In this document: piece by piece, positions 7,692 to 55,884 of the stretch
Layout: each line of letters starts with the position of its first letter
How positions within the stretch are numbered: the first letter of the stretch is position 1
Assembly: GCF_000425365.1 (NCBI RefSeq)
Contig: NZ_AUDH01000002.1
Coordinates: 186,001-250,000 of the forward strand
DNA length: 64,000 nucleotides
Source: Rubritepida flocculans DSM 14296
GTDB lineage: Bacteria > Pseudomonadota > Alphaproteobacteria > Acetobacterales > Acetobacteraceae
Direction of reading: 5' to 3'
The notes under the pieces: generated by a model
What the model saw: only the letters and a program-made list of their open reading frames with translations
Told to the model about the DNA's origin: nothing
Databases searched by the model: none
Translations under genes and position numbers: made by a program

Positions 7692-8753
7692 ATGCGGAGC
7701 CTGGGCCGTTCCTTTCTCTGGGCGTTGCTGCTCGCCTGCCCAGCGATTCTCTGGGCCTTTGCGGCGCGGGCGGACGGGCCTGTGCATCTGCGAATCCTGG
7801 GCGGGCTGGCCAATGTCAGCCAGTATCTGCGCTTCGAGCAGCCCTTCTGGGAGCGGCGGGTCCGCGAACTGAGCGGCGGAAGGATCACCGCCGAGATCAT
7901 GCCCTTCGACCAGGCGGGGCTGCGCGCGACGGAGGTGCTGCCGCTGATGCGCCTCGGGGTGGCGCCCTTCGCCTATGCGCTGCTGGCCGCCGCCGCCGCC
8001 GAGGAGCCGGAGATCAACATCGCCGATCTGCCGACCCTCAACCCCGACATCGCGACGCTGCGGCGCAATGTGGCGCGGGTGCGGCCCTTCCTCGCGCAAC
8101 TGCTGCGCGAGCGTTACGATGTCGAGCTGCTGGCCATCTACACCTATCCCGCGCAGGTGATCTTCTGCCGCCGGCCCTTCACGGGCCTGTCGGACCTCGC
8201 CGGGCGGCGCATCCGCACCTCCTCGGTGGCGCAGTCGGAGGTGATGGAGGCCCTCGGCGCCACGCCCGTGGTGATTCCCTTCGCCGAGATCGTTCCCGCC
8301 ATCCGCGCCGGCGTGGTGGAATGCGCCATCACCGGCACGCTCTCGGGCAACGCCATCGGCCTGCACGAGGTGACGACGCATGTGCATGCGCTCGCGATCT
8401 CCTGGGGCCTCGCGGCCTTCGGCGCGAGCCGCGGCGCCTGGGAGGCGCTGAGCGAGGCCGACCGGGCCCTGCTGCGCGAGGGGCTCGCGGGCCTCGAACG
8501 CGACATCTGGGAGGGCGCCGAGCGCGAGACCGGCGAGGGGCTGGCCTGCAACACCGGGCAGCCGGGTTGCACCGCCGGGCGGCCCGGGCGGATGACGCTG
8601 GTGCCGGTCTCCGCGGCGGATTCGGCGCGGCGCGAGCGCCTGCTGCGCGAGACCGTGCTGCCCCGCTGGATCGCCCGCTGCGGGCCGGAATGCGCCGAGG
8701 TGTGGAACAATCTGCTCGCCCCCGTCACCGGGGTGCGCGCGGGCGCGCCCTGA
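7692..8753 (+). CDS. DctP-like periplasmic solute-binding protein (likely sensory)
   Basis: A 353-residue secreted protein of the TRAP-transporter DctP superfamily. A signal peptide occupies about residues 1-27 (hydrophobic core then AFAARADG). The family landmarks follow: GRRIRTSS with the ligand carboxylate-binding arginine, then PVVIPFAEIVPAIRAGVVECAITG. Four cysteines cluster near the C-terminus (CNTGQPGC and CGPEC), unusual for DctP and possibly disulfide-forming. No DctQ/DctM permease is adjacent. Instead the stop overlaps the start of a hybrid histidine kinase (ATGA), so it probably presents a ligand to that kinase rather than to a transporter. The ligand is not predictable from sequence alone. 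Confidence 0.85.
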   Translation: MRSLGRSFLWALLLACPAILWAFAARADGPVHLRILGGLANVSQYLRFEQPFWERRVRELSGGRITAEIMPFDQAGLRATEVLPLMRLGVAPFAYALLAAAAAEEPEINIADLPTLNPDIATLRRNVARVRPFLAQLLRERYDVELLAIYTYPAQVIFCRRPFTGLSDLAGRRIRTSSVAQSEVMEALGATPVVIPFAEIVPAIRAGVVECAITGTLSGNAIGLHEVTTHVHALAISWGLAAFGASRGAWEALSEADRALLREGLAGLERDIWEGAERETGEGLACNTGQPGCTAGRPGRMTLVPVSAADSARRERLLRETVLPRWIARCGPECAEVWNNLLAPVTGVRAGAP

Positions 8754-11560
8754 TGCGCGGCACAGGGCTGCTGCGGCTCGCGGTGCTGGCCGCCGTGGTC
8801 TGCATCCTGCTCGCCCAGGCCCTGGCCACGGCGCTGCTGCTGGAGCGGTCCCACCGGGCCGCGCTGGAACAGGCGCGCGAGACGGTGGCCCGCGTCGGGC
8901 GGTCGGTGGAGGCGGCGCTCAACCGCAACCTCCTGCAGGTGGATTCCATGCTGCTCGGCCTGCCGGTGCTGCTGCAGCCGGTGGTGCGGGACGGCCGGCT
9001 GGACGGCAACGCCGCCAGCCTGCTGCTGCGCGAGATTTCCAACCAGAACTTCACCTTCCGCGACGTGCTGCTGGTGGGCGCGGACAACATGCCGGTCGCG
9101 ACGGCGCTGACCGTCTCGCGCCGCCGGCCCCTGCCCCTGCCGCTCGGCGCCGGCTACGCCGAGACGGGCGTGCCCGGCGGCGTGCTGCGGATCGGCGGGC
9201 CCGTCCGCAACCCGATGACGGGCGAATGGGCCGTCTTCTTCGCCCGGCCGGTGACGCTGCGCGGCGTCGGCCCGCTCACCGCCGTGGCCGAGCTGCCGGT
9301 CTCGTGGCTGGGCGGGCTGCTCGCGGCGGGGGGCGAGCCGCCGGGGCTGCGCGTGACGCTCGAACTGCGGGACGGCACGCTGCTCGCCTCGCTGCCGCAT
9401 GACGAGGGGCGGATCGCCACCCGGCTGCCCCGGGGCGGCAGCCCCTCGCACACCGAGGTTTCGCGCTTCGACGGGCAGCCGGTGCTCGGCATCGAGCGCC
9501 CGACCCTCTACCCCGCCATGGCGGTGGTGGTGACGATGGACCGCAGCGCCGCGCTGGCCGGATGGCGGGCGGAGCTGACGCGCTCCATCCTCGTCTCGGT
9601 GGGCCTCGGCGCGCTGGTGGTGGCGCTGGCGGCGCTGCTGCTGCTCTCGCTGCGCCAGCGCGCCCGGGTGGAGGAGGAGCGGCAGCGCTGGCGCGCCCGG
9701 CTGGAGAGCGCGCTCGACAGCATGAACGACGGCTTCGTGATGTTCGACGCCGAGGATCGGCTCGTCATCTGCAACCAGCGCTACAAGGAGCTCTATGCCG
9801 CCTCCGCCCCCTATATCGTCGAGGGGGCCCATTTCGACGACATCATGCGCGGCGGGATCCGCAACGGCCAATACCCGCAGTTCAGCGGCGACCCGGAGCA
9901 GTTCATCCAGGAGCTGAAGGCCTGGCGGCGCTCCAACGGCCCGCCCATCGAACGCCTGCTGCCCGACGGGCGCTGGGTGCTGATCACCGAGCGGCCCATG
10001 CCCGATGGCGGCACCGTGGGCATCCGCACCGACATCACGGCGCTCAAGCGCGCGATGGAGGAGGTGGAGCAGGCCGCCGAGGCCAAGACCATGTTCCTCG
10101 CGCGCATGTCGCACGAGCTGCGGACGCCGCTGAACGCCATACTGGGCTTCGCGCAGCTCCTGCTCTCCAGCGGCAACCTCACGCCGACGCAGTACGAGCA
10201 GCTTCGGCTGCTGCATGAGGCGGGGCACCACCTGCGCGAGCTGGTGAACAGCCTGCTCGATCTCGCCAAGATCAACGCCGGCAAGCTGGAGCTGGAGCTG
10301 GCGCCCACGCCGCTCGCGCCGCTGCTCGAGGGCTGCGCGGGGCTGCTCGGCCCCGAGGCGCAGCGCAAGGGCGTGGAGCTTCGCCTGGAACGCGCGCCCG
10401 GCCTGCCCGAGGTGGTGGAGGCGGACGCCACCCGGCTGCGCCAGATGGTGCTCAACCTGCTCTCCAACGCGGTGAAGTTCACGCCCTCCGGCGGCCGCGT
10501 GGTGCTGCGCGCCGCGCCGCTGGCGGGCGAGGGGGTGCGCATCGAAGTGCAGGACAGCGGGCCCGGCGTGCCGGAGGCCAAGCGGCACCTGCTCTTCCAG
10601 GATTTCACGCAGCTCGGCCGGGCGGGCGATCCGGAAAGCCCGGGCACTGGCCTCGGCCTCGCCATCACCTCGCGGCTCGCCGCGCTGATGAAGGGGCGCG
10701 TCGGCGTGGAGAGCCAGGAGGGCAGGGGCGCCACCTTCTGGATCGAGCTGCCCCTGCGCGCCGCGAGCATGCCCTCCGCCGCGCCGCAGATCGCCGACGC
10801 GCCGCCCCCGCTGCCCCCGCTGCGGCTGCTGGTGGCCGACGACATCGCGCCGAACCGCATCCTGATGCGCGCCATGCTGACCGCGGCGGGCCACCAGGTG
10901 ACGCTCGCCTCTGATGGGATGGAGGCGCTGGCCCAGCTCCGCACGGGCGTCTTCGACGCGGTGCTGATGGATGTGCGGATGCCGGGGATGGACGGGCTGG
11001 AGGCCACGCGGCGCATCCGCGCACTGCCGGGCCCGGTGAGCCGCACCCTGGTCATCGCCGTCACGGCGTCCGCCCTGCCGGAGGAGATCGCCGAGTGCGA
11101 AGCCGCCGGCATGGACGCGCACATCGCCAAACCCGTGGACCGCGAGGCGCTGTTCGCGCTGCTGCGCCGGCTGCGCGAGGAGAGGCGCCGCGCCGCGGCC
11201 TCCGAGGCCGTGCCGGAAGGTCCGGGCCGGGCGCTGCTGCAGGAGCTCGGCGCCTCCGGGCCGGAGCTGCTGCGGGAGTTCATGGCGGAGCTGGAGGCCG
11301 TCGTGGCCGAGCTCCAAGCGCCGCAGGCGCAGGCGGATGCCGACCGCCTGCACGCGCTGCTCCACCGCGGCCTGGGCGCCAGCGCCACGCTGGGCGCGGA
11401 GGCGCTGCGCGCCGCCTTCGACGCGGCGACCGACCGGCTGCGCAAGGGCGCGGCGCCCGGGGCCGTGCTTGCGCCCCTGCGCGAGCGGCTCGCCGCCGAG
11501 ATGCCGGCGCTGCGCGAGACGCTGCGCGGCGCGGCGGAGGCCGGCACGGCGGCGGCTTGA
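8753..11560 (+). CDS. Hybrid sensor histidine kinase (periplasmic sensor-PAS-HisKA-HATPase-REC-HPt-like)
   Basis: A 935-residue membrane kinase. TM1 is at about residues 8-30, and a periplasmic PDC/Cache-like region spans about 31-275. TM2 is at about 278-300, followed by a PAS domain (about 312-430). The HisKA domain carries the phosphoacceptor H454 in SHELRTP. The HATPase has N-box SNAVKFT, G1 DSGPGVP and GTGLGL. The receiver domain has D740 in MDVRMPGMDG and K793. A C-terminal HPt-like helical region has H871 in the pattern HRGLGASATLGA, where the usual HxLKG lysine is replaced. The start codon overlaps the stop of the DctP-like gene. No downstream DNA-binding response regulator is adjacent, so the phosphorelay output is elsewhere or intramolecular. 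Confidence 0.93.
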   Translation: MRGTGLLRLAVLAAVVCILLAQALATALLLERSHRAALEQARETVARVGRSVEAALNRNLLQVDSMLLGLPVLLQPVVRDGRLDGNAASLLLREISNQNFTFRDVLLVGADNMPVATALTVSRRRPLPLPLGAGYAETGVPGGVLRIGGPVRNPMTGEWAVFFARPVTLRGVGPLTAVAELPVSWLGGLLAAGGEPPGLRVTLELRDGTLLASLPHDEGRIATRLPRGGSPSHTEVSRFDGQPVLGIERPTLYPAMAVVVTMDRSAALAGWRAELTRSILVSVGLGALVVALAALLLLSLRQRARVEEERQRWRARLESALDSMNDGFVMFDAEDRLVICNQRYKELYAASAPYIVEGAHFDDIMRGGIRNGQYPQFSGDPEQFIQELKAWRRSNGPPIERLLPDGRWVLITERPMPDGGTVGIRTDITALKRAMEEVEQAAEAKTMFLARMSHELRTPLNAILGFAQLLLSSGNLTPTQYEQLRLLHEAGHHLRELVNSLLDLAKINAGKLELELAPTPLAPLLEGCAGLLGPEAQRKGVELRLERAPGLPEVVEADATRLRQMVLNLLSNAVKFTPSGGRVVLRAAPLAGEGVRIEVQDSGPGVPEAKRHLLFQDFTQLGRAGDPESPGTGLGLAITSRLAALMKGRVGVESQEGRGATFWIELPLRAASMPSAAPQIADAPPPLPPLRLLVADDIAPNRILMRAMLTAAGHQVTLASDGMEALAQLRTGVFDAVLMDVRMPGMDGLEATRRIRALPGPVSRTLVIAVTASALPEEIAECEAAGMDAHIAKPVDREALFALLRRLREERRRAAASEAVPEGPGRALLQELGASGPELLREFMAELEAVVAELQAPQAQADADRLHALLHRGLGASATLGAEALRAAFDAATDRLRKGAAPGAVLAPLRERLAAEMPALRETLRGAAEAGTAAA

Positions 11561-11627
11561 TACGGGCGGCGTCTCATACCAGCGGCCGCTGATTTCGACT
11601 CCTGAGGAGCCGTGCGGCCGCTGGCAT
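11558..11627 (+). repeat. Stop-codon-embedded hairpin repeat, copy A
   Basis: It begins at the kinase stop codon (TGATACGGGCGGC) and contains the 14-bp arms ATACCAGCGGCCGC (11576-11589) and GCGGCCGCTGGCAT (11614-11627), with one mismatch. The loop holds a smaller CTCC-TGA-GGAG hairpin. It fills the gap between two convergent genes and may end transcription from both sides. It lacks the longer flank (AAAACAAAGGCAT side) seen in copies D and E. Confidence 0.8.
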
Positions 11628-11633
11628 GATCGG

Positions 11634-13226: not shown

Positions 13227-13344
13227 CCTGCGCTCCCGCTCGGTTGGTCCGGGCGCTTTGTCCCGGACCGACCTGAAGGAAGCGTTAAGCCGCGAACCCG
13301 GCGGCCGCGTGGGGCGGCCCTTCGCGCCGCAGCGCGACGGCGGG

Positions 13345-13421
13345 CATGCGCCGGTTCTGGCGCGCCGCCGTCCGCCAGCCCCGGCTGCGCGATGCGTTGA
13401 GCGTGACCGCCGGCCGGATCA
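13345..13421 (-). repeat. Dispersed repeat, copy B (stemless, diverged)
   Basis: Read on the minus strand it starts at the stop codon of the TauE-like gene as TGATCCGGCCGGCGGTCACG. It is collinear with copy D through the ATCGCGCA and GGCGGCGCGCCA segments and then the GCATGC junction. The large stem-loop half is missing. It lies downstream of the TauE-like gene and upstream of the cadherin-like gene. The remaining 13227-13344 spacer shows no gene. Confidence 0.65.
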
Positions 13422-14150
13422 GGCGGCGAGCCGCACCGCGAGGCCGATCAGCACCGCGGCGTTGAGGAGGAACAGGATGGCGCCCGCGGCCGGCGCCGCG
13501 CCGCCCAGCAGATGCCGCAGCCCCCGCCCGAAGAAGGCGAGGGCCATCAGGGCGGGCATGGTGCCCGCCACGAAGGCGACCATGGCGAGCGCCCCGGCGA
13601 GCGCGCTGCCCGAGGCGGCCGCCCCTGCCAGCGCGGCGTAGAGCAGCCCGCAGGGCAGGGCGGAGAGAAACACCCCGAGGCGAACGCCGCGCCAGCCCGT
13701 CGGCGCGGCCATCAGGGGGGCAAGCCGCGCCTCCAGCGCGCGCGCGAAGGGCGGCGCAGGAAGCCGCGGCAGCCAGGCGGAGAGCCTCGCGGAGGCCTGC
13801 GCCAGCATCAGCAGCCCCGCGAGCAGGAGCAGCCCGGCGGCGAGGAAGCGCACGCCGCTGGCCTGCGCGAACAGCGCGCCCGCGCCGCCGGCCAGCGCCC
13901 CCAGCAGCCCGTACCCGATCGCCCGCCCGGCGTGGTAGGGCAGCAAGGCCGCGCCGGTGAGGCGGCGCAGCGCGCCCCCGCCCAGCGCATCGGGCGCGAT
14001 GGCCGCAGTCTGCGCGAGCACGAAGGGCCCGCACATGCCAAGGCAATGGGTGAGGCCGCCGGCCAGCCCGGCGAGGAAGAGAGCGCCCATCAGCGCCGGC
14101 AGCCCGCCGGGGCCGAGGGCCGCGAGGTCATGAAGGCAATCGCCCCACAT
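13419..14150 (-). CDS. TauE/SafE-DsbD-like membrane protein (UreH-type domain)
   Basis: A 243-residue polytopic protein with about six transmembrane helices. The first helix pair carries the motif HCLGMCGPF, a metal- or thiol-type signature found in the sulfite exporter TauE/SafE and 'urease accessory protein UreH-like' (DsbD_2) families. Homologues of this type frequently accompany cbb3 oxidase or c-type cytochrome maturation genes, so a role in copper or cytochrome maturation is plausible, with the oxidase operon 7 kb away. That is inference. The stop codon lies inside repeat copy B. Confidence 0.78.
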   Translation of the reverse strand: MWGDCLHDLAALGPGGLPALMGALFLAGLAGGLTHCLGMCGPFVLAQTAAIAPDALGGGALRRLTGAALLPYHAGRAIGYGLLGALAGGAGALFAQASGVRFLAAGLLLLAGLLMLAQASARLSAWLPRLPAPPFARALEARLAPLMAAPTGWRGVRLGVFLSALPCGLLYAALAGAAASGSALAGALAMVAFVAGTMPALMALAFFGRGLRHLLGGAAPAAGAILFLLNAAVLIGLAVRLAA

Positions 14151-28207: not shown

Positions 28208-28959
28208 CGCTCCGCGTCGAGGATCTGCACAAGAGCTTCGGCGGCGTGCAGGCCGTGGCGGGCGTCTCGCTCGAGGTGGCGGCGGGGGAGCTGGTGGCGC
28301 TGATCGGGCCCAATGGCGCGGGCAAATCCACCTGCTTCAACATGCTCAACGGCCAGCTCCGCCCCGACCGCGGCCGCGTGGTGCTGAAGGGCGAGGACAT
28401 CACCGGCCTGCCGCCGCGCGCCGTCTGGCGGCGCGGGGTGGGGCGCACCTTCCAGATCACCGCCACCTTCGCCTCGATGAGCGTGCTGGAGAACGTGCAG
28501 ATGGCGCTGCTCTCGCACCGCCGCCGCCTGTTCGATCTCTGGCGGCCCGTGGCGCGCGAGGATCCGGCCGAGGCGCTGGCGCTGCTCGCGCGCGTCGGCA
28601 TGCAGGCGCAGGCCGGCCGCCCCTGCGGCGTGCTGGCCTATGGCGACCTGAAGCGCGTGGAGCTCGCCATCGCGCTCGCCAACGCCCCCGCCCTGCTGCT
28701 GATGGACGAGCCCACCGCCGGCATGGCCCCGGCCGAGCGCGTGGCGCTGATGGAGCTCACCGCGCGCATCGCCCGCGACTCGGGCATCGCCGTGCTGTTC
28801 ACGGAGCACGACATGGACGTGGTCTTCGCCCATGCCGACCGCATCCTGGTGCTGGACCGCGGGCGGCCCATCGCGGAAGGCAGGCCGGCCGAGGTGCGCG
28901 CCGATGCGCGCGTGCGCGAGGTCTATCTCGGCACCGGCGCCACCCACGGAGGGCATTGA
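28204..28959 (+). CDS. livG: LivG-type ABC ATPase
   Basis: A 251-residue ATPase of the branched-chain amino acid transporter class. Walker A is GPNGAGKST, followed by NGQLRPDRG and the GVGRTFQ Q-loop. The signature region LAYGDLKRVELA replaces the canonical LSGGQ, as is normal for LivG. Walker B is LLLMDEPTAGM and the switch histidine is in FTEHDMDVVF. The ATG overlaps the permease stop and its own stop overlaps livF, so translation is coupled through the operon. Confidence 0.93.
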   Translation: MTLRVEDLHKSFGGVQAVAGVSLEVAAGELVALIGPNGAGKSTCFNMLNGQLRPDRGRVVLKGEDITGLPPRAVWRRGVGRTFQITATFASMSVLENVQMALLSHRRRLFDLWRPVAREDPAEALALLARVGMQAQAGRPCGVLAYGDLKRVELAIALANAPALLLMDEPTAGMAPAERVALMELTARIARDSGIAVLFTEHDMDVVFAHADRILVLDRGRPIAEGRPAEVRADARVREVYLGTGATHGGH

Positions 28960-29660
28960 TGCTGGAGGTGGAGGGGCTGCACGCGCATTACGGCCGCGCG
29001 CACATCCTTCAGGGTGTCACGCTCTCCGCCGCGCAGGGCGAGGTGGTGGCGCTGCTCGGCCGCAACGGCGCGGGCAAGAGCACCACCATGAAGGCCATCA
29101 TGGGCCTCGTGCGGCCCACCGGCGGGCGCGTGCGCTTCCAGGGCCAGGACGTGACGGGGCGCGAGCCCTTCGAGATCGCGCGCCAGGGCCTCGGCTATGT
29201 GCCGGAGGAGCGGCGCATCTTCACCGAGCTCACGGTGATGGAGAACCTCGATGTGGGCCGCCAGCCGCCGCGCGCGGGCCTCGCGCCCTGGACGCCGGAG
29301 CGCGTCTTCGCCCTCTTCCCGAGCCTCGGCGCCATGCGCGCGCGGCCGGGCGGGCGGATGAGCGGCGGCGAGCAGCAGATGCTCACCATCGCGCGCACGC
29401 TGATGGGCAACCCGCGCCTCATCCTGCTCGACGAGCCGAGCGAGGGGCTCGCGCCCGTGATCGTCGAGCGCATGGCCGCCGCCATCCTCGAACTGAAGCG
29501 CGAGGGGATCACGGTGCTGCTGAGCGAGCAGAACCTGCACTTCGCGCGCCTCGTCTCCGACCGCGCCTGCGTGCTGGAGAAGGGCGCCATCCGCTGGGAG
29601 GGCACGCTGGCGGCGCTGATGGAGGCGGAGGAGGTCCGCGCGCAGTATCTGAGCGTGTGA
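28959..29660 (+). CDS. livF: LivF-type ABC ATPase
   Basis: A 233-residue second ATPase. It carries Walker A GRNGAGKST, GYVPEERRIF typical of LivF, signature MSGGEQQM, Walker B LILLDEPSEGLAP and LSEQNLHFA as the switch region. The ATG at 28959 overlaps the livG TGA. Its TGA is the first base group of the palindrome at 29658-29690 shared with the convergent amidohydrolase gene. Confidence 0.93.
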   Translation: MLEVEGLHAHYGRAHILQGVTLSAAQGEVVALLGRNGAGKSTTMKAIMGLVRPTGGRVRFQGQDVTGREPFEIARQGLGYVPEERRIFTELTVMENLDVGRQPPRAGLAPWTPERVFALFPSLGAMRARPGGRMSGGEQQMLTIARTLMGNPRLILLDEPSEGLAPVIVERMAAAILELKREGITVLLSEQNLHFARLVSDRACVLEKGAIRWEGTLAALMEAEEVRAQYLSV

Positions 29661-29690
29661 TCCGGGCGGCACGCCACGCCGCCCGCATCA
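29658..29690. terminator. Palindrome containing both convergent stop codons
   Basis: TGATCCGGGCGGC (29658-29670) and GCCGCCCGCATCA (29678-29690) are 13-bp arms with a single mismatch, separated by seven bases. The outer triplets are the livF stop and, on the minus strand, the amidohydrolase stop. It looks like a compact bidirectional terminator. The arm sequence recurs at other gene ends in the window (copies A, B, D and E). Confidence 0.7.
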
Positions 29691-30755
29691 GGGGTCCAGA
29701 TCCACCCCCGCCAGCCCGTAGGTCGCCACCGCCGTCCCGCTGAACAGCGCGGCGCGCTCCTCCGCGCTCGCGCCGGCGGCGAGGCGCTTGAAGGCGTTCC
29801 ACAGCGCCCTGTAGCCGCACATCCCCTTGTCCACGGGGAAGTTGCTCTCGAACATGGCGCGCCGCGCGCCGAAGGCCTCGATGGCCGTCTCGATCCAGGG
29901 CCGCCACGCCTCGGCGAGCTGCCGCGAATGGGGCGGGCGCGGCGCCTCGTGGAAATCCCAGCCGCCCACCTGCATCGCAAGCCCGCCCAGTTTCACGCGG
30001 AGGTTCGGGCAGGCGGCGAGGGCGCGGATCATCTCCCGCCACTCGGCGAACACCTCCTCCCGCCGGCCCGCATAGGGCCCCACGCCGAGCGGCCCGCCCA
30101 GATGGTCGAGCACGATGGCGAGCTCCGGCACGGCGCGCGCGAGGTCGAGCAGCAGCGGAAGCTGCGTATGGTAGCACCAGACATCCAGCACCAGCCCCGC
30201 GCGCGCCAGCGCCCGCGCGCCCTCGAGGAAGGCCGGCGTGCCGAGCGGCCCCGGCGGCGGCGCGGTGAGGTTGGAGCGCACCTCGGGCGAGGGGTGCCAG
30301 GCGGTGCGGTTGCGCACCCCCACGAAGCGCGGCCCCGCGATGCGCCGATGCGCCTCGATCAGCCGCTCCACCTCCGCGGGCGGCAGGGTGAGGTCCACGA
30401 GGCCGATGATGCCGGCGCAGAGGCGCGCGCGGCCATAGGCGCCGCTCGCGCTCATCGCCGCGACGCCGTTGGCGAACTCCGTCTCGCCCAGCGGCCGCTC
30501 CGCCTCCGGCCCGTCGGCGCGGTACATCGCGCCGCACTGCACGAAGACGCTGCCCCGGATGTCGTGGCCGCTCGCCGCATCGGCGCGCAGCTCGTCGAAC
30601 AGGTAGCGCTCGCCCGGATGGTCCCAGAGGTGGTGGTGCGGGTCGAGGATGGGCAGGCCGGGCGCCAGCACCTCCTCCTCCTCGGCGAGGGCCAGCCACT
30701 CCTCCCGCACGGCGATCTGGCGGGAGCGGGTGAAGCTCCAGGGCCGGGCGCTCAT
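29688..30755 (-). CDS. Amidohydrolase family 2 (TIM-barrel metal hydrolase/decarboxylase)
   Basis: A 355-residue member of the amidohydrolase-2 superfamily. It has the metal site HxH-like LDPHHHLWD (about residues 36-44), VFVQCGAMY, a mid-sequence histidine in CYHTQL, VLDHLGGP and the C-terminal ESNFPVDKG with the catalytic aspartate region. Relatives hydrolyse lactones or decarboxylate aromatic acids. It is translationally coupled (ATGA) to the upstream CoA transferase gene and belongs to a three-gene minus-strand set with the CitE-like lyase. Substrate unknown. Confidence 0.85.
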   Translation of the reverse strand: MSARPWSFTRSRQIAVREEWLALAEEEEVLAPGLPILDPHHHLWDHPGERYLFDELRADAASGHDIRGSVFVQCGAMYRADGPEAERPLGETEFANGVAAMSASGAYGRARLCAGIIGLVDLTLPPAEVERLIEAHRRIAGPRFVGVRNRTAWHPSPEVRSNLTAPPPGPLGTPAFLEGARALARAGLVLDVWCYHTQLPLLLDLARAVPELAIVLDHLGGPLGVGPYAGRREEVFAEWREMIRALAACPNLRVKLGGLAMQVGGWDFHEAPRPPHSRQLAEAWRPWIETAIEAFGARRAMFESNFPVDKGMCGYRALWNAFKRLAAGASAEERAALFSGTAVATYGLAGVDLDP

Positions 30756-32826: not shown

Positions 32827-33035
32827 GGGCGCTTCCTCCTCGCCGCGAGTGTGGCACGGCGGGCGGGCGGGGTCAGCCCAGCGCCGGCGTGGCGAGACGT
32901 GGTGGATGTGCGCCAGTGCCCGTCGCGGATGCGGCGGGAAATCGGGGCGGCGTCGTCTGCGGCTCCTGCAACGAGGCAGCACCGGTGTCGGGGGCGTCTG
33001 TAGACGGCCCGCCATGGGCGGGGATATCATGCGAG

Positions 33036-33120
33036 CCGCTGCTGGTATGCCTTTGTCTTGGCACGCCGCCGCCCGCCAAGCCGAGATGCTCGATACGCCC
33101 CGCGCGAGCGTCGGACGTGT
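33036..33120 (-). repeat. Dispersed repeat, copy C (partial)
   Basis: On the minus strand this matches copy D from the GTATCG segment through GGCGGGCGGCGGCGTGCCA and the AAGACAAAGGCATACCAGC junction, then the match ends. It sits in the 32827-33200 gap, between the CitE-like gene and a truncated IS. Apart from this repeat I see no gene in that gap. Confidence 0.6.
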
Positions 33121-33199
33121 CACATCCCGGACCTGACTGGGCTGGCCGCCGAGGTGATGCCCGTCGGCGCGATATGGTGGCCCATCTCCTGACGCCCCG

Positions 33200-47240: not shown

Positions 47241-47371
47241 CCGCACCATACCAGCGGCCACTTGCTTCGACTCGTGAGCAAGCGGCTTGGCCGCTGGTAT
47301 GCCTTTGTTTTGGCACGCCGCCGCCCACCAACCCGGCGTGCGCGATACGTCCGGCGTGACCGCCGGCCGCA

Positions 47372-47374
<3 letters not shown>
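47241..47374 (-). repeat. Stop-codon-embedded hairpin repeat, copy D (full length)
   Basis: Read on the minus strand it begins at the glmS stop (TGATGCGGCCGGC), continues through a 60-base conserved middle with CGTATCGCGCA and GGCGTGCCAAAACAAAGGCA, and ends with the stem TGGCCGCTGGTAT/ATACCAGCGGCCA (47288-47300 and 47248-47260, 13 bp perfect). The stem's interior contains a second hairpin CTTGCT/AGCAAG (47261-47266 and 47277-47282). It separates glmS from tonB. Confidence 0.85.
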
Positions 47375-49195
<1,821 letters not shown>

Positions 49196-49317: not shown

Positions 49318-49666
49318 CGCCGAGACGCACGCCTTGTCGCCGTTGCCCCCCATCACGCGCGACAGGATCGACGCTTCGCGCCTTGCGAGGGGATCCGGCC
49401 GCAAGGCGGCCGGCGCCGCCCAACCGCCCTCGCGGCCGGGCGCGCCCGGCGCGCGGCGCAGCCAGCGCGCGGAGCGCGCGCCCGGCGCCGAGGAGGACAC
49501 CCTTTTCGCGATGGCGTCGCCATCACGCGCAACAGGATCGAAGCTTCGCGGCCTTGCAAGGGGATCCGGCCGCAAGGCGGCCGGCGCCGCCCACCTGCCC
49601 TCGCGGCCGGGCGCGCCCGCCGCGCGGCGCAGCCCAGCGCGCGGAGCGCGCGCCCGGCGCCTGAGG
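49318..49666 (+). repeat. Imperfect tandem duplication, about 170-bp period
   Basis: Two units line up at a 170-base offset: CATCACGCGC at 49351 and 49521, then ACAGGATCGA, GGGGATCCGGCCGCAAGGCG, GCCGGCGCCGCCCA, CTCGCGGCCGGGCGCGCCC and GCGCGGAGCGCGCGCCCGGC in both. Divergence is modest and the left 30 bases are more degraded. Each unit can form strong hairpins (GGCCGC-AAG-GCGGCC). The 49196-49669 gap between glmS and phnE holds this and no convincing gene; the frames open across it are repeat translations. Confidence 0.8.
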
Positions 49667-55082: not shown

Positions 55083-55748
55083 ATGGGCGAGACGCGCGTG
55101 AAGGTCTGGGATGGCTGGGTGCGGCTCTGGCACTGGTCCATCGTGCTGCTCATTCCGGTGAGCTACCTCACCGCCCAAGCGCAGAAATGGGACTGGCACT
55201 TCTATTCGGGCTACGCGCTGCTCACGCTCGTCTCCTTCCGCATCCTCTGGGGCGTCTTCGGGTCGGAGCCGGCGCGCTTCGCAACCTTCCTCAAGTCGCC
55301 CTTCGCGGCGCTCGCCCACCTCGCGCGCATCCGCCGCGAGGAGGGGCCGGACCGCGAGCTCACCCACAACCCCGCGGGCGGCTGGGTGGCGCTGGCGATG
55401 ATGGCGCTGCTGCTCGCGCAGGCGGTGAGCGGCCTCTTCGCCTACGACCAGATCTTCACCTATGGCCCGCTGGCCCGGCAGGTGAGCGAGGAGACGCGCG
55501 ACCTCGCGACCTCCCTCCACATCCGCGTGATCAATGTGCTGCTCGGGCTGATCGCGCTGCACATCCTGGCCATCGTCTGGTACCGGCTGATCAAGGGGCA
55601 TGACCTGGTGCAGGCCATGATGATCGGCACCAAGCCCATGCCCGAGGGCACGCGCGCGCCGCGCATGGCCCCGCCGCTGCTGGGGCTCGCGCTCTTCGCG
55701 CTCTGCGCGGCGGTGGTGCTCTACATCCGCAGCTTCGGGGATTATTGA
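55083..55748 (+). CDS. Cytochrome b561/Ni,Fe-hydrogenase b-type membrane cytochrome
   Basis: A 221-residue four-helix membrane cytochrome. It opens VKVWDGWVRLWHWSIVLL with a conserved heme histidine, then HFYSGYALLTLVSFRILWG, where a second histidine and RxxWG are typical. TSLHIRVINVLLGLIALHI gives two more histidines. It would accept electrons from c-type cytochromes or dehydrogenases into the quinone pool. It stands alone, and its stop codon begins repeat copy E. Confidence 0.9.
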   Translation: MGETRVKVWDGWVRLWHWSIVLLIPVSYLTAQAQKWDWHFYSGYALLTLVSFRILWGVFGSEPARFATFLKSPFAALAHLARIRREEGPDRELTHNPAGGWVALAMMALLLAQAVSGLFAYDQIFTYGPLARQVSEETRDLATSLHIRVINVLLGLIALHILAIVWYRLIKGHDLVQAMMIGTKPMPEGTRAPRMAPPLLGLALFALCAAVVLYIRSFGDY

Positions 55749-55884
55749 GACGGGCGGCATGACATGCCGACCGTATCGCGCGCAGGGTTGGTGTGGCGGC
55801 TGCGCGCCAAAACAAAGGCATAGCAGCGGCCGCACCGGCCCCTCAGGAGTCGAGATCAGCGGCCGCTGGTATGAGACGGGCGGC
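55746..55884 (+). repeat. Stop-codon-embedded hairpin repeat, copy E
   Basis: It begins at the cytochrome stop as TGAGACGGGCGGC (55746-55758), and the identical 13-mer recurs at 55872-55884, bounding the element. Between them lie the shared CGTATCGCGCGCAGGGTTGG and CGCCAAAACAAAGGCAT segments, then 14-bp stem arms at 55820-55833 and 55859-55872 (one mismatch). Orientation is the reverse complement of copy A. It fills the space between convergent genes. Confidence 0.82.

Follow-up and report, generated by a model that had tools for sequence, protein, structure and literature searches.

Palindromic elements directly behind TGA triplets in Rubritepida flocculans: a probable family of small mobile repeats found mostly at gene stops

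Stop-anchored motifs in a 64-kb window

We analyzed a stretch of 64,000 nucleotides of the Rubritepida flocculans DSM 14296 genome (the window), in which an initial annotation had noticed a short motif, TGATNCGGSCGGC or TGAGACGGGCGGC, beginning at the stop codons of six genes. Each of the six motif starts coincided with the stop of a called gene (Table 1). There were exactly five perfect matches to TGATNCGGSCGGC in the window (11558+, 13421-, 29658+, 29690-, and 47374-), and TGAGACGGGCGGC was present at 55746+. An extra TGAGACGGGCGGC at 55872+, not listed previously, is at the far end of the element that begins at 55746 and lies away from a stop. The conserved stem built on ATACCAGCGGCC was also found as described, at 11578 and 47248, and the element at 55746 carries it on its right arm. 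With two mismatches allowed, the window held 47 matches to the motif against a shuffle mean of 52.7, which is not an enrichment. The window alone could therefore reflect chance, and we sampled the genome; the significance of the motif lies in its position and in its exact genome-wide copies. A search of the window against Rfam gave no matches at the gathering score. The region between glmS and the next called gene also contains an 84-bp direct repeat (49380-49463 and 49551-49634, 95% identical, spacing 171).

Table 1. Genes that end at the motif and repeat features in the window
Feature	Position	Strand	Remarks
Hybrid kinase gene	8753-11560	+	Called gene, motif at 11558
TauE-like gene	13419-14150	-	Called gene, motif at 13421
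livF	28959-29660	+	Called gene, motif at 29658
Amidohydrolase gene	29688-30755	-	Called gene, motif at 29690
glmS	47372-49195	-	Called gene, motif at 47374
Cytochrome b gene	55083-55748	+	Called gene, motif at 55746
Stop codon of hybrid kinase plus H3-type outer arm, TGATACGGGCGGC	11558..11570	+	Copy A, rearranged
H1 hairpin alone	11574..11630	-	Deleted element, model positions 107-164
Decayed composite element behind TauE-like stop TGA	13292..13421	-	Ends set by sister comparison
Solo hairpin TGA..TCA	29658..29690	.	Common to the convergent livF (+) and amidohydrolase (-) stops; gap of 27 bp
Composite element fragment	33034..33123	-	Intergenic, not at a stop; absent from the initial annotation
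Composite element, short form, type-B H3	47246..47374	-	TGA of the element coincides with the stop of glmS; TGG as the triplet on the right
Complete composite element, short form	55746..55874	+	129 bp with both TGAs; TGA at cytochrome b stop
Parts of the 55746 element	H3 55746-55777, H2 55778-55808, linker 55809-55818, H1 55819-55874	+	
Right-end TGA plus H3-arm-like right flank (TGAGACGGGCGGC)	55872..55884	+	Repeats the left 13 bases

Placement across the genome

We joined the window to 786 kb of the same genome to give a sample of 850 kb (GC content, 73 to 74%) and called genes with a purpose-made codon model, which yielded 827 genes with 702 TGA, 97 TAG, and 28 TAA stops. The initial annotation had left it to a genome-wide count whether copies fall at random relative to stops or are no more frequent at stops than base composition predicts. 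The sample answers this question. Among the 38 copies of TGATNCGGSCGGC that it contains, 32 started at a called stop, 6 were intergenic, and none was coding; TGATNCGGNCGGC stood at a called stop in 38 of 49 cases. The core CGGSCGGC was found at offset +5 from 42 of the 827 stops, compared with 0 to 4 at each of the remaining offsets between 0 and 59. When TAG and TAA were also admitted in front of NNCGGNCGGC, all 48 such stops were TGA (baseline, 85%; P = 4 × 10−4), and 36 of the 48 belonged to convergent neighbors. The exact motif had 160 matches genome-wide (1 for the reversed-pattern control) and 2 to 24 in each of 20 same-genus genomes (controls, 0 to 5). Exact anchoring of a hairpin repeat family on stop codons is thus supported far outside the window.

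The strong peak was specific to this lineage. In samples of 200 kb from each of four comparison genomes (two of the same genus, one of the same family, and one of the same class), the motif was absent at +5 from 194, 177, 143, and 181 stops, or 0 of 695 together (Fisher P = 8 × 10−12). In a sample of the sister genome, G018, CGGSCGGC occurred five times at +5 and five times at +16 among 746 stops, equal counts that form no single peak. These results argue that the strong peak belongs to the lineage rather than to a general habit of terminators.

Architecture and copies of the element

The motif is the outer arm of a hairpin, H3, within a larger element. The 30 loci that we read resolved into one mosaic element, the main form of which consists, from the gene side outward, of H3 (arms TACGGNCGGC..GCCGNCCGTATC, with two loop types), H2 (arms GCGCGCAGGGTT..GCTGCGCGCC, joined by one more hairpin in a long form), an A-rich linker, and H1 (arms CATACCAGCGGCC..GGCCGCTGGTA). 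Its end sequences are TGATACGGNCGGC and GCCGCTGGTATGA, and the consensus ends may form an imperfect terminal inverted repeat (TACGGTCGGC versus TACCAGCGGC, 7 of 10 bases). Complete ends were present in 51 copies, 30 of 128 to 130 bp and 21 of 164 to 167 bp with both TGAs counted; the net gain per insertion, counting a single TGA, is about 126 or 163 bp.

A 13-mer from H1 had 153 exact matches genome-wide (control, 0) and 257 with at most one mismatch (control, 2). A profile search of the 850-kb sample found 36 composite copies or fragments. The left end was intact in 27, of which 19 lay exactly at a called stop and 8 lay away from called stops, yet also behind a TGA. BLAST of the whole genome gave at least 66 matches, with 40 of 250 candidates scored, and some of these are second matches to the same palindromes, so that 66 should not be taken as the number of copies. 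Elements lie no more than a few hundred bases from the start of several contigs (C6:64, C15:118, and C24:291), and the assembly may therefore hide copies.

BLAST matches occurred in 11 of 21 same-genus genomes, the present one included, and besides it long matches were confined to G018. Elsewhere (G020, G010, G004, G002, G011, G015, G009, G014, and G001) the match covered mainly the H2 part, about 28 to 55 bp; in G020, the profile match extends towards H1 (L273 to L275). An older repeat may have given rise to H2, the middle part of the element. A 17-mer from H1 had matches in at least 76 stretches of genome contigs; among those listed in a profile scan, a single one, from Roseococcus sp. SKW89, held a strong match (E = 1.4 × 10−23; the next, 0.06). 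Another repeat, CTAGACAGAAACTGACACGCGGGC..GGTGGGTAAC, adjoins ends of the composite element in places (C1:374814-374928, L217, and C3:181128-181240, L218, for example). Its 20-mer had 30 genome-wide matches with at most two mismatches (control, 0). This repeat starts with a TAG; its CTAG start coincides with the TAG stop of a called gene in each of the two sampled copies.

Flanking TGAs

We judged the ends of the 51 complete copies with a model that lacked the terminal triplets, its seeds having had TGA ends; the copies were partly fetched by similarity to H1, and the set therefore leans to intact ones. TGA flanked 44 copies on both sides, with a left TGA in 49 and a right TGA in 45. One copy had TAA on both sides (C1:384366), and none of the 51 had TCA on both sides: the orientation is strict. 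Tandem copies have one TGA in common (L024). One empty site holds a single TGA. A fixed triplet looks the same as an end carried by the element.

Among 11 variant copies, 4 had a left arm matching the right flank past the TGA (permutation value of 0.003 over 40 copies), a likeness that a plain 3-bp duplication does not explain. A long target duplication, supported in just these 4 of 11, was not adopted. The second base after the right TGA was A in 53% of cases, compared with 11% for stop TGAs as a whole; the difference arises from the many copies placed at an H3-like hairpin that was there before them (L012, L023, and L027, for example). The element may accordingly prefer a TGA that is followed by a hairpin.

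Comparison with the sister genome

The sister genome is 91% identical to the window over 16 kb and contains empty sites. At C2-238054, an intergenic copy, G018 has a single TGA, and both flanks align to the base: the filled site reads ..GGC-TGA-element-TGA-AGGGGG.. and the empty site reads ..GGC-TGA-AGGGGG... At no other site did the alignment of both flanks reach the TGA. At window position 13421, the sequence TGA-element-GGCTTAACGCTTCC corresponds to TGA-GGCCTTAACGCTTCC in the sister, where the right flank follows directly after the TGA. At C1+55203, a 70-bp reduced form stands opposite an empty TGA in G018.

Across 245 orthologous stops, the motif was present 10 times here only, once in G018 only, and never in both, a lineage-specific gain. 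Of the 10 motif-bearing genes, 9, including livF and the gene at 13421, have their stop at the same TGA in G018, where the motif is missing. The stop at these sites is thus the gene's own, and the element mostly lands behind existing stops. Three of the 10 sites (C1-369165, C1-350416, and C2-191796) differ by more than a clean insertion. The sister has copies of its own: among 13 places fetched, the left end was intact in 7, and 6 of these 7 start at a called stop.

The suggestion that the repeat supplies gene stop codons does not hold as a rule, given these nine shared stops, and survives as a possibility at one gene. The amidohydrolase gene of G018 runs 13 codons further than the one here, whose stop at 29690 coincides with the beginning of the solo hairpin; in G020, a more distant relative, the amidohydrolase also runs on past this position. 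The stop may have come from the far end of that hairpin, which would have shortened the protein. In the G018 assembly the amidohydrolase gene is not beside livF.

Solo hairpins and folding

Gaps between convergent genes in the sample peaked at 26 and 27 bp (7 and 6 of 119 pairs). Gaps of this size were found in 1 of 99 pairs in G018, 1 of 21 in G010, and none in the other three genomes. Eleven of the 13 gaps were palindromic and reached both stops, with 8 or more of the 13 outer pairs formed. At C2:17853, convergent stops 26 bp apart enclose an H3-like hairpin, and the same gap in G018 is 4 bp (TGA-GGCG-TCA); at least one solo hairpin is thus also a lineage-specific difference. The solo hairpins seem to belong to this family, as members or in reduced form, and fit it loosely.

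In gene orientation, folds were more stable than those of shuffled sequences for the copies at 55746 (z, −4.0) and 47374 (z, −4.9) and for the solo hairpin at 29658-29690 (z, −4.2). The best fold of the 55746 copy in this orientation kept H3 and paired H2 with H1; in the 47374 copy, and also on the opposite strand, H2 and H1 fold separately. At H3 pair 9 in 40 type-A copies, we counted T-A in 21, C-G in 5, G-C in 5, and other combinations in 9, so that three Watson-Crick types account for 31 of 40 copies, with some compensating changes. From the far side, the H1 stem was followed by CCTTTGTTTT in 15 of the 28 copies among the 12 kinds listed. A simple scan for intrinsic terminators gave no match at two loci. 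The layout of a stop-plus-terminator cassette, as the family was first described, is present. The element itself proves mobile, and the terminator reading draws on the stem-loops, with the scan negative at two loci; terminator action of the hairpins is a hypothesis from sequence.

A mobile element behind TGA and its alternatives

We consider it likely that the family consists of small, apparently nonautonomous mobile palindromic elements placed behind TGA in one orientation. An element would insert directly behind a TGA in that orientation, leaving a second TGA at its far end; we infer that this TGA duplicates 3 bp of the target and is not carried by the element itself. An enzyme acting in trans would move it. 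Stop TGAs would be enriched among the sites since insertion there spares the protein, perhaps helped by a preference for a TGA plus a hairpin. The hairpins may terminate or protect the preceding gene's transcript, and H1 with a T-rich tract, read from the opposite side, may do the same for a convergent gene.

Purging of promoter insertions can explain part of the stop excess, and purifying selection alone could produce it. Were all TGAs outside genes equally likely targets, the 478 free stop TGAs and the 812 other intergenic TGAs (of 903 in all, 91 lie in or next to copies and were set aside) would place 37% of copies at stops. The observed 19 of 27 exceeds this TGA-only prediction (P = 4.5 × 10−4).

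The searches for a mover covered several candidates. PF01797, the family of the Y1 transposase RAYT, had no match in the genome itself or in the sister, and RAYT was not supported as the mover. IS110 was not supported either: it had three matches here and none in the element-bearing G018, and no element ends were found at those three loci. A parent insertion sequence (IS) with paired ends 250 to 3,600 bp apart did not appear in the 850-kb sample or the fetched loci, apart from one tandem-copy place seen in two loci.

Selection could instead have built a genome-specific stop-plus-terminator signal, perhaps spread by gene conversion and with no transposition, the hairpin being a homogenized bidirectional terminator. 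The 13 of 119 convergent pairs with gaps of 26 to 27 bp, mostly filled by hairpins reaching both stops, are what such a signal would look like, as are the stable folding of the hairpin at 29658-29690 and the compensating changes; the available text of PMC1590033 also describes very stable stem-loops as common in prokaryotes, both close to stops and in the spaces that separate convergent genes. We nevertheless regard this origin as unlikely. It does not account for the left-intact composites that lie off stops and still follow a TGA, for the gain of a whole unit at an intergenic TGA that the empty site records, or for tandem copies with a common TGA, and the terminator scan was negative at two loci. 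Composition would explain the pattern as a coincidence of GC-rich hairpin arms and TGA stops, both common at this GC content, and the motif with two mismatches was indeed no commoner in the window than in shuffles. The single-offset peak (42 against 0 to 4) and its absence at +5 in the four other genomes leave this reading with next to no probability.

Membership in a REP/BIME family mobilized by RAYT would fit a palindromic, intergenic, multicopy hairpin mosaic with tandem arrangement and an H2-like hairpin in other genomes of the genus. Among 21 same-genus genomes, however, a single one, which is not the sister, has a PF01797 match, and the ends of the element are TGA with no GTAG or CGTC tag, so we judge this origin very improbable, more so than the selected terminator.

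We return to the mobile element placed behind TGA, which may have a stronger form. Targeting would then amount in effect to recognition of stop codons: a TGA and a palindrome would be read in one orientation, the protein would be left mostly intact, and the element would bring its own bidirectional hairpins. The 32- to 33-bp solo form would serve both stops of a convergent pair and at times supply one, and the mover would be a recombinase class not yet linked to such repeats. We offer this form tentatively and think it somewhat doubtful.

Mobile repeats usually have a loose intergenic preference. Here, a strict three-base site used in one orientation puts most left-intact sampled copies on stops to the base, and a stop TGA is available at almost every gene as a place where insertion mostly does no harm. 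The family would explain exactly phased hairpins that resemble a designed stop-terminator, and it offers a natural test of target choice against selection in a compact insertion system that can be traced. Motifs phased to stops should not be read as regulatory before empty sites have been checked.

Relation to known systems

IS200/IS605 elements and their derivatives have hairpins at both ends and insert behind a short fixed motif in one orientation. The present element likewise has end hairpins, a short fixed target motif, and one orientation; it differs in that its genome has no Y1 transposase match and its hairpins reach the very ends.

Our literature search, drawn largely from papers available without subscription, found no description of a TGA-specific or stop-codon-anchored bacterial repeat. 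In the text available for the works compared below, stable stem-loops are favored between convergent genes and over the first 50 bp after a stop (PMC1590033), a distance preference for which that text describes no mobile unit; our element has one fixed offset. REP/BIME sequences with RAYT (PMC2817692) and the GTAG and CGTC REPs (PMC3733652) are palindromic repeats as well, and the CGTC type is reported to predominate in alphaproteobacteria without a dedicated transposase (PMC3733652). Unlike these, the element is a longer, three-hairpin unit with exact stop anchoring and has neither a GTAG or CGTC tag nor a RAYT. IS1272 also takes inverted-repeat structures as targets in its stem-loop-replacing transposition, as described in the portion available (PMC5678879). 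It replaces the target stem-loop, whereas here the hairpin-like flank behind the TGA is kept (L012 and L023) and the TGA is fixed.

YPAL/RU-2 of Yersinia, a 168-bp repeat with targets that span or adjoin a dyad symmetry, resembles the element in its internal inverted repeats and its filled and empty sites; its duplications are 3 to 26 bp, and the text available describes no fixed TGA (PMC2229807). The likeness extends to bacterial miniature inverted-repeat transposable elements (MITEs) and other small mobile repeats, including MITEAba12 (PMC2229807 and PMC6382973), which, as far as the consulted text goes, are also noncoding, shorter than 200 bp, and present in many copies, with filled and empty sites between relatives; the 7-of-10 match between the ends of the present element and its flanking TGAs may correspond to their terminal inverted repeats and target duplications. 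MITEs are described there with a TA motif at the ends or with 9-bp and variable duplications; the site here, by contrast, is nearly always TGA, used in one orientation and mostly a gene stop, and a parent IS was not found. The element is short and multicopy, and its filled and empty sites mark it as mobile. We file it as a MITE-like mobile palindromic element whose new feature is the TGA target rule.
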